Shown: one piece after another, positions 19,476 to 49,642 of the stretch | How the letters are laid out: the number at the start of each line of letters is the position of its first letter | How positions within the stretch are numbered: the stretch's first letter is position 1 | Assembly (NCBI RefSeq): GCF_040958095.1 | Contig: NC_091172.1 | Span: 28,641,209-28,705,208 of the forward strand | Length of the DNA: 64,000 bases | Origin: Procambarus clarkii | Lineage: Eukaryota > Arthropoda > Malacostraca > Decapoda > Cambaridae | Direction: 5' to 3' | Program-made: the position numbers and the translations under genes | Notes under the pieces: generated by a model | The model's database searches: none | Told to the model about the DNA's origin: nothing | Seen by the model: only the letters and a program-made list of their open reading frames with translations

Positions 19476-22400
19476 CTGCAATAGAAAGTTAAGAACTATG
19501 TTAATTATAACTACATATATATTTAATTAATAACCTGAAGAGATCATTATTATTTTTAAAACTATTGTATTCTAATATAGCAATATTATATATTTGATCA
19601 AGTTAATAAATGTATGTAGAGTGCACTACTCTCAATGCATGTATGAGGGACCTTTTCAAAGATTTTGATATCTTTTGTATGTATGCCATTTCTCAGGCGT
19701 GTTCTATATCTTATGTGTGTTGTCTCAGGTGTGGAATATCTCTCAGGTGTGGAATACCTCACATGTGTAGAATATCTCTTTTGGTGTGAAATAACTCTCT
19801 GGTTTGGAATATGTCGCAGGCGTGGAACACCTTGCAGGTGTGGAATATCTCAGGTATGAAATACCTTTCAGGTGTGGAATAGCTTTCAGGTGCGGAATAT
19901 TTATCATGTATGAAATATATCTCAGGTGTGGAATATCTCTCAGATGTGGGAATATCTCTCAGATGTAGAATATCTCTCAGTTTATGAATATCTCTCAGTT
20001 GAAGAATATCTCTCAGATGTGTAAAATCTCTTAGGTGTGTACAATCTCTCAGGTGTGTAAAAAAGGGTAAGTTGCCTCCTGTGGGCTGGAAGGTACTGAC
20101 ATCAACCACTAAATGGGTACAAATAACAGTGTTTCCTGGCAACGCTAACTGGGTTGATTGTTGATTTGCAAATTAAAAAAGACTGTAATTGATTAATCAA
20201 TGTTGTAACTTGCTTAACCAAATAAATATTGGGGGTTCAGTTCCTGAGCCCATTATGTGCCTCTGTAACTCTCCACCATACGCTGCCGGGATGGACAGCG
20301 AGGGTACATAGTAGATAAAATAAAGTAATTAAAACGAGTGGATGGATAGGTATGGTACTGATTTGGAAGTATGAATGAACAAGCTGCCGTGCAGGATGGT
20401 GAGTAGGGAGTGTAAATACGCTGACATAGGCTTTCGTGTGTATTACTAATGGATCAAAAGTGGACATGTCCAGGAAGCACTTGCTGGTGAGTCAGGGTGC
20501 GTGGCCAAAGGATGAGTTAAGAGTTGTCAAGCATGTTTTTAAATGAGTGGACAAGGGTGAGTGAGGAGCGAGTGCGACAACACAGAGCGTGAACCTGAGG
20601 TGCGTAGCGGCAGACAAGCAAGGACTGGCAGGGCGTGGGGAAGAGGTCTCCCGCAAGGAGGGTGTGGGCGTGTGGGTGGCCGACCTGTGGACTCGTCGAC
20701 CCAGGCTCTGCGTCTCGACGTATATGGCGCGCTTCACTTCCCTTTCTACTTGCTCCCAGTCTGCATCGCCGTCAATCTGTTAGCAAAACTGAAGATTTAG
20801 ATTTCAATCAATTGATCTGACTTTTGGATTCAGAGTCAGATTCCTTTATGTATTATGCACCCCCCCCCCCATACCCATTCCATGGGCGGTGTTGACTTTG
20901 GAACCGCACAATAAATTTTTAAATACATTAGGAGTCAAGAGGGCAGTTATAATTGCTTGCTAAACTCTCGTTTTCCAGCAGACACCTGGACGATATCTGC
21001 TAAAACACGAGAGCTATTGTAGGCTGCATATTGTTCCTGGAAAAGTATGCTTTACAACCTCTTAGGGATTCACTGAGACTTGAATGGTTGAAAACATTGA
21101 ATCTTGCTGAAGTTTTCACAGGGTAGATATATAATGCATATCATAAAAAAGCTATATAAAGAGGGTCATAATAACCACAGGTCACTGAGATGTTATCAAG
21201 GTCAAAGAGGGTCATGACAAGCACAGGTTAGTGAGCTGTCATAAAGGTCTAAGAGGGCCAAAGAGATAATACAGGTACTCACAATTTTCAGCCTATTCTT
21301 CTCATCAAAGGCCTTCAACATGGGAAGAGTGACCTCCCTGTAGATGGCGAGTCGTCTACGCGCTGCTGCCACGTTGTCATCAAGACGGTTCTCTCTCCTG
21401 CCTAAGTTCCTGCCCAGCTCCAACTCCGAGCAGTCGATCAGCAACAGTGTAGGGATCTGGTGAAACTGCAAAAGAAGATTCCAAACAAGTCAAGCAATAG
21501 TTGTTGTTTAGAGTAGTATTTTTGTGCTCATAATTTTGATGCCTTGTTTCATCACAAATAAATCTATTCAGATATATATGTATGGAGATGGCGTAGCTGA
21601 AATATTCAATTCAGATAAAATATTGAAGTTCTTGCGAGGCAGGATCAAGTATAACATTTGGGGTTTAAGGCTCATGCTAAGTGATGATATGAAAAATTGG
21701 TTTACTGAGAATTATATAAACTATTATATAAATTAAATAGTATATATTTAAATATTATATAAATAGTTTATATAAATTATATAAACTATTTATAATGCAG
21801 TATTTTCCTTGTAAATATATGTATATATATATATATATATATATATATATATATATATATATATATATATATATATATATATATATATATATATATATAT
21901 ATATTTTGTGACGATAATCTCTTTCAAGAGAGATTGAGCCTGCTCTTCCCTACATAATTACGTCAAAATACAAGATACGTTCACCAAGTATCGCCAAACG
22001 TTTTGCCCAGAGAGCAAATCGTACCCCAACACCTGGCCACCGCCGTAACCAGCTAACTGCTCATCCTCTGCCTGCCTGTTGCTGATTGGCTGGTGTCTCG
22101 TCGCACCTGCCCTCCACCTCCACCACAAGTCGACGTCTGGGCTGCAGTGCGCCAGTCTCGTCAGAATATCTCAGTGCTCCATGCAGTTGACATCTCTCGC
22201 TGGTAGACTAAGCCTTGGCTTTCGTGTACTAAGGGAGGTGGCAGCTCGAAGCCAATATTCCAGAACTCATATTTTATTTTGCTATCACTGTAACTTACTT
22301 GTCTTAGCGTAACTTTTCATTTGCCAGTGATTATTCATGTTATTTTGTTTGTTGACTTGTCCTGCATATTTTTATGAGATTACCTTTATTCATGTCTCGT

Positions 22401-49642: not shown

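Follow-up and report, generated by a model that had tools for sequence, protein, structure and literature searches.

A minus-strand gene in a 64,000-nt stretch of Procambarus clarkii DNA (assembly GCF_040958095.1, NC_091172.1:28,641,209-28,705,208, without any N; here, the window) encodes two adenylate kinase (AK) domains in tandem, and from their residues we infer that neither is a normal adenylate kinase. With about even confidence, we favor the reading that this is an AK5/CG9541-like tandem gene in which both domains would be pseudoenzymes, with a product that would work by binding partners and a domain 2 that may be gated by AMP. As an enzyme the protein is probably inactive or nearly so and has been retained for a different role; we do not read it as two halves that complete each other.

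The gene was modeled as ten minus-strand exons spanning 49642-20492, which splice to 1595 bases and 530 open codons. The sole stop of the joined frame is its final codon (20492-20494), and AG..GT is present at every internal junction. Exon borders were chosen by splice sites and phase, which makes the GT-AG borders and the open frame only partly independent as evidence. The precise splicing is presumably as follows:

49490..49642, minus strand: exon 1, a Pro/Thr-rich segment and beta-1 of domain 1 (APVIFFLG); 5' end uncertain; donor GTAATT, ends in phase 1
48910..49020, minus strand: exon 2, the P-loop of domain 1 (GGPGSGKMT) together with the opening part of the NMP region, which has no GDLLR
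41575..41717, minus strand: exon 3, the domain 1 VSGYPR segment, with Ser for the Asp of DGYPR
29377..29559, minus strand: exon 4, the LID region of domain 1, in which the Arg and Asp-Asp are missing and RKDL stands for KKRL
28652..28757, minus strand: exon 5, the C-terminal helix of domain 1 running into the linker; its donor is weak, with an alternative at 28655
27446..27562, minus strand: exon 6, the linker, then beta-1 (PPCLFFMG) of domain 2; donor GTAAGT, ends in phase 1
26287..26486, minus strand: exon 7, the defective domain 2 P-loop and the GQMLR-bearing region, with an insertion of ~11 residues
23241..23354, minus strand: exon 8, the domain 2 VGFPR segment, with Val for the Asp of DGFPR; Gln101 retained
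21283..21465, minus strand: exon 9, the domain 2 LID; NRLDDN and RRRL retained; ~3 residues shorter
20492..20776, minus strand: exon 10, the domain 2 C-terminal helix, a low-complexity tail and the stop

The motifs that an earlier note on this DNA had quoted were all recovered on the minus strand, within the range it gave, by a six-frame motif scan and by reading the DNA. Those of domain 1 lie at 49001-49021 (GGPGSGK), 41608-41619 (GYPR) and 29443-29454 (RKDL), and those of domain 2 at 26467-26487 (GGPGSDK), 23274-23285 (GFPR) and 21376-21390 (NRLDD, followed by RRRLAIY). Exons 5 and 6 are additions to these motifs and supply the last helix of domain 1 and the linker with the first strand of domain 2. 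The short peptides 'ALVIT' and 'FQFQFFPG', which can be read directly ahead of the two P-loops, were rejected as coding sequence in favor of exon joining, because the AK1 gene of the same genome is interrupted by a phase-1 intron at this position.

Whereas the lower limit of the model (20492) is a stop codon, the upper limit (49642) is one of three candidate acceptors for exon 1. Thirteen AG sites were scored there and three came out above zero (49659, 49642 and 49635); 49659 scored better than 49642, the acceptor used in the model, whose 5' end is incomplete. No start exon was recognised upstream of exon 1, leaving the N-terminus of the modeled protein incomplete. Two donors score low, that of exon 2 (2.3) and that of exon 5 (-1.9). 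The tail in exon 10 may contain another splice, and a form of domain 2 started by an ATG at ~26516 may also be made.

The surrounding DNA has features of its own. The 7-kb intron between exons 2 and 3 holds an (AG)n array (42135-43744, ~805 copies, 99% matches), which sits within a stretch of strong purine skew at 40001-44000. On the opposite strand, within the intron separating exons 3 and 4, an open reading frame (ORF) at 31639-32109 (plus strand) has a Pfam Mucin-like match (1.3e-11) that is probably low complexity. Downstream of the gene, an ORF at 5595-6023 (plus strand) matches Pfam RNase_H (1.5e-7) and RVT_3 (2.2e-5) and is probably a retroelement fragment. The region 57500-63900 contains several long overlapping ORFs in many frames, for which simple repeats are the likely cause; one frame near 62300 carries an HT dipeptide repeat. 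When three of these ORFs were compared with Pfam, two had no match and one had a Ribosomal_L31 match below the cut-off (21.7 versus 27 bits). No RNA families were found in the window.

Both domains belong to the AK family. The joined protein matches Pfam ADK (PF00406) in two stretches with 94.5 bits (E=9.1e-27), exceeding the gathering score of 26.8 bits, and the single domains score 36.6 bits (domain 1) and 65.5 bits (domain 2). The ten-exon model thus contains two tandem AK domains and a linker, as in AK5. Among solved structures, domain 1 is best matched by 2bwj (E=1.7e-11), in a near-tie with AK1 (2.2e-11); 2bwj, which we take to be domain 2 of human AK5, is the sole AK5 entry among the solved structures listed. 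Domain 2 is best matched by 5ycf (E=6.2e-19), and AK1 ranks above AK5 domain 2 (4e-15). Adding the flanking exons improved both matches, from 1.2e-5 to 1.7e-11 for domain 1 against 2bwj once exons 1 and 5 were included, and from 3.1e-17 to 6.2e-19 for domain 2 against 5ycf once exon 6 was included. Single exons are weak by comparison: in profile searches of the genome (4,027,284,227 bases in 2308 contigs), none of the nine matches listed for PF00406 and 0 of the 14 listed for TIGR01360 fall in the window. AK5 has an N-terminal docking-type domain; when the minus strand of the window was searched with a crude pattern, no docking-like peptides were found, with the 5' end of the model open.

The AK1 gene of the same genome (C10), to which domain 1 is 26% and domain 2 28% identical, has a phase-1 intron within the first Gly codon of the P-loop that is common to both domains, and its probable upstream exon ends KLPVIFVL-G. 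Its phase-0 intron after LVPL is present also in domain 2. In domain 1 this second intron is displaced, and some of the NMP region that would lie between these borders is absent. These positions agree with descent from AK1-type genes.

To score the active sites, we aligned both domains with the genome's own AK1, 2bwj, 5xz2 and 80 bacterial AKs using MAFFT and compared 23 catalytic sites, numbered partly as we take them to stand in AK1. The bacterial rows are the closest 80 of 575 confirmed AK1 matches and all carry Bacteroidota titles, a narrow baseline that overstates family-wide invariance. Within it only two of the 23 sites vary, G16 (Ala in 78 rows) and D41 (Glu in 2), which leaves 21 invariant; the DGYPR Asp, G(K-1), K, G(K+1), Thr23, Arg44, Arg97, Gln101, Arg138, the two LID Asp residues and Arg149 are thus found in 80/80 rows each. 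At T39, Ser is present in 5xz2 and in the genome's own AK1, which is otherwise consensus (22/23 sites). 2bwj is off consensus at R132 and R138 (Met and Pro) and has Glu at D41. Sites T39, D41, R132 and R138 are therefore the less telling ones, while D93, G20, G22, R44 and Q101 are intact in the bacterial rows, the own AK1, 2bwj and 5xz2.

Domain 1 has lost 12 of the 23 sites (G22, T39, G40, D41, R44, D93, Q101, R128, R132, R138, D140 and R149) and retains G15, G16, P17, G18, G20, K21, T23, G94, P96, R97 and D141. Domain 2 has lost eight (G20, G22, T23, T39, D41, D93, R128 and R132), of which R128 and R132 are uncertain, both adjoining a gap of ~3 residues; it retains all other sites, including the P-loop Lys, R44, R97, Q101, R138, D140, D141 and R149. 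Neither domain has the P-loop GxPGxGKGT: domain 1 reads GGPGSGKMT, with Met at K+1, and domain 2 reads GGPGSDKWR, in which the change from GSGKGT to GSDKWR places an acidic residue in the phosphate loop. The Walker B Asp of DG[FY]PR is gone from both (Ser in domain 1, Val in domain 2; Asp in 80/80 bacterial rows). In addition, the NMP region is shortened in domain 1 and carries an insertion of ~11 residues in domain 2.

Published descriptions of AKs indicate what these positions do. According to passages of PMC9599734, the Walker B Asp corresponds to Asp81 of 3SR0, G(K-1) and G(K-6) mark the ends of the P-loop with G(K-1) stabilising the alpha-phosphate, and K+1 is Gly in human AKs, AK6 excepted. 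A passage of PMC8317388 lists the AMP-site residues as 39, 44, 101, 138 and 149; domain 1 has 0/5 of these and domain 2 has 4/5, Thr39 being lost. Human AK1 deficiency alleles named in an excerpt of PMC9066714 include Gly40Arg, Gln101Lys, Arg128Trp, Arg138His, delAsp140 and Arg97Trp. Five of these positions (40, 101, 128, 138 and 140) are lost in domain 1; both domains retain Arg97.

The residue table bears out the view of the earlier note that neither half looks self-sufficient, and it changes other parts of the picture given there. The Walker A motif of domain 1 had been called ideal, but Met follows the Lys where AKs have Gly (80/80 bacterial rows, own AK1 and the two PDB rows). The losses reported for this domain are real and had been understated in extent, since GDLLR has lost its Arg, the Gln that follows GYPR is missing too and the NMP region is shorter. 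Nor does each half retain what the other lost: six of the 23 sites, the Walker B Asp among them, are lost in both, against 4.17 expected (P(<=6) = 0.98). Removing the uncertain R128 and R132 leaves four shared losses versus 2.86 expected; removing T39 and D41 as well leaves two (D93 and G22) versus 1.68, and leaving out G22 too gives one (D93) versus 1.17. In the main test the overlap is at or above expectation, so the losses are not reciprocal. What does emerge is an asymmetry in the substrate sides, in which domain 1 retains the P-loop side with no AMP-site residue and domain 2 most of the AMP side and the LID with a broken P-loop.

One possibility is that exons missing from our model restore the lost motifs. 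We built an HMM from the 80 bacterial AKs plus 2bwj, 5xz2 and the genome's AK1, with both window domains excluded, and scanned 4262 ORFs of at least 15 residues in the window and ~39 kb of flank. Seven ORFs scored at E<1, five of which contain model exons. The other two were regarded as chance or probable chance matches: an ORF at 43977-44159 (E=0.21) and a short LID-like ORF at 26550-26636 on the minus strand (E=0.57), the latter within the intron that precedes exon 7, both match LID pieces in the wrong place or order. Among these 4262 ORFs there was no second P-loop or LID exon at E<0.2 and, across the window and flank, no convincing third AK domain. Scan sensitivity was limited, in that the scores of exons 4 and 5 were no better than 3.1 and 2.7, with exons 1, 6 and 10 unlisted at E up to 50; the scan is stronger evidence for the absence of a canonical P-loop or GYPR exon than of a degenerate one. 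A missing middle exon of domain 1 was sought by mini-exon searches with two filter sets, which gave one and two candidates, none of them AK-like, at a donor threshold of 2.5 that is stricter than the model's own donors of exons 2 (2.3) and 5 (-1.9). As for the motif-restoring alternative exons that the earlier note had raised as a refutation, none found was convincing, with the reservation that the HMM scan also missed 3/10 of the model exons.

We also examined the gene's genomic setting. No second copy was found among the best candidates scored, where all matches at E<0.001 (four of the ten listed for domain 2 and all three for domain 1) are the window itself; the next genome match (C84) has E=0.298 over 29 residues. 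Among viral_contigs, ten stretches matched by pattern were considered as related loci and none was confirmed. The genome also appears to hold ordinary-looking genes for AK1 (C10), AK2 (C66 and C65), AK3-like (C16) and CMPK (C17), named from the exons seen, so the normal AK supply need not depend on the window gene. The AK2 exons occur twice with equal scores (C66 and C65), with one copy at most 12 kb from the start of C65, a pattern suggesting haplotype duplication in the assembly.

The ten open exons argue for a live gene. A simulation of neutral decay started from the 176-codon coding sequence of the genome's AK1 and ran to 50% identity, an end point of our choosing, with substitutions as the only kind of change; the frame stayed stop-free in 13/400 runs, which argues for constraint on the reading frame. 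The gene is presumably under selective maintenance.

Several other explanations must be weighed against a tandem pseudoenzyme. The one with the best claim, though still doubtful, is a purely structural scaffold or docking protein in which neither domain binds nucleotide: both sites are compromised, and the NMP region is shortened in one domain and interrupted by an insertion in the other, but the selective retention of the P-loop in domain 1 and of the AMP and LID side in domain 2 seems more than the fold alone needs. It is unlikely that the protein is a slow or altered but active NMP kinase with domain 2 as its catalytic half. That domain does score 65.5 bits against Pfam ADK and keeps the P-loop Lys, Arg44, Arg97, Gln101, Arg138, the Asp-Asp and Arg149, yet its GSGKGT has become GSDKWR and its Walker B Asp is Val, and the lost G(K-1) is, in the passage cited above (PMC9599734), one of two markers of the P-loop ends and a stabiliser of the alpha-phosphate. 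We regard it as very unlikely that the gene is a decaying pseudogene or recent relic. Numerous lost catalytic residues, the weak donors of exons 2 (2.3) and 5 (-1.9) and the N-terminus that was not found would fit such decay, against which stand 530 codons open across ten exons, when even one domain alone stays open in only 13/400 neutral runs.

The remaining two explanations fare worse. That the losses are partly an artefact of the model, with an unseen exon restoring part of the domain 1 NMP region or alternative exons restoring motifs, is highly improbable. Room for such exons exists, as domain 1 is without part of its NMP region, exons 2 and 3 are separated by a 7-kb intron that includes the AG repeat of 1.6 kb, the LID-like ORF at 26550-26636 scores weakly (E=0.57), and the scans would miss weak exons (1, 6 and 10 unlisted, and the donors of exons 2 and 5 below threshold). 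Exons 2 and 3 nevertheless match in phase, the mini-exon candidates are not AK-like, and no second P-loop or LID exon was found at E<0.2 among the 4262 ORFs; moreover, the DGYPR segment and the LID already lie in identified exons, so an NMP exon could not restore them. Least probable of all, to the point of being nearly dismissed, is the composite active site proposed in the earlier note, in which the domain 1 P-loop would supply ATP and domain 2 the AMP site and LID. Domain 1 does keep G15-G20, K21 and Thr23 with 0/5 AMP-site residues, and domain 2 pairs 4/5 of them and the LID Asp-Asp and Arg with a broken P-loop. But the DGYPR Asp and the K+1 Gly are absent from both, the overlap of losses (6 versus 4.17 expected) is not below chance, and a domain swap would be required, as each AK site forms within one core; we know of no domain swap in tandem AKs.

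Under the preferred reading, a tandem pseudo-adenylate kinase, domain 1 retains a nucleotide-phosphate loop and is without the AMP site, the Walker B Asp and the LID arginines, and domain 2 retains most of the AMP site and the LID and is without a usable P-loop or the Walker B Asp. Normal ATP+AMP phosphotransfer is predicted from these residues to be beyond either domain, and the protein would most likely function through partner binding, with domain 2 perhaps gated by AMP. AMP binding by domain 2 is the most likely biochemical property to remain, judging by four residues, a judgment that the loss of Thr39 and the insertion in the NMP region weaken. Because domain 2 keeps Arg44, Gln101, Arg138 and Arg149 with its P-loop broken, a regulatory nucleotide sensor, the other outcome the earlier note had allowed for, seems possible and more plausible than a composite site. 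Sensing or scaffolding would be the function. A specific version, distinctly unlikely in our view, is a split ATP/AMP sensor in which domain 1 would offer an ATP-type loop and domain 2 the AMP site and LID, with no turnover, and their relative occupancy would switch a partner; the probable insect counterpart of such a gene is enriched in antennae.

Should arthropods at large share these losses, what is annotated as an adenylate kinase gene would encode a two-domain pseudoenzyme and possibly an AMP-binding regulator; annotations would be corrected, and the gene would offer a natural case for how nucleotide-kinase folds become sensors. If they are limited to one lineage, they would represent ordinary enzyme decay. 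Our literature searches found no paper linking adenylate kinase with pseudoenzyme and none on AK5 adenylate kinase domains in arthropods, which is not proof that none is in print.

Among known systems, AK5 shares the tandem AK domains in one chain and provides, by a hair over AK1, the best solved match of domain 1 (2bwj). It differs in that both of its domains are reported active, whereas by its residues the protein described here has a complete catalytic set in neither domain, and in that domain 2 here is nearer AK1 (6.2e-19) than AK5 domain 2 (4e-15). A passage of PMC10056885 describes AK5 and AK8 as having two active domains. A caution follows for our own reading: some LID loss is tolerated in AKs, because two LID arginines are off consensus in 2bwj and activity is reported for each of the AK5 domains.

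The window gene is probably the counterpart of Drosophila CG9541. AK5 is listed against CG9541, with 'Cytidylate kinase activity', in an extract of PMC8664455, and a section of PMC6829134 places CG9541 among antenna-enriched, amos-depleted genes and suggests a possible role in a signalling cascade. In a table excerpt of PMC7414772, a blow-fly gene with 648 in the length column and an ADK label has adenylate kinase isoenzyme 5 as its best match. Closer to hand, the genome's own AK1 (C10) belongs to the same family and has intron positions common to both domains, but it is consensus at 22/23 sites and only 26% (domain 1) and 28% (domain 2) identical.

A further comparison is with AK2, which according to passages of PMC9117275 binds BRAF via its NMP domain, with AMP enhancing the binding, and still inhibits BRAF as catalytically inactive mutants. 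AK2 differs in being a full single-domain enzyme, and BRAF binding is not implied for the window gene; the likeness is that AK2 sets a precedent for AMP binding in an NMP domain acting without catalysis.
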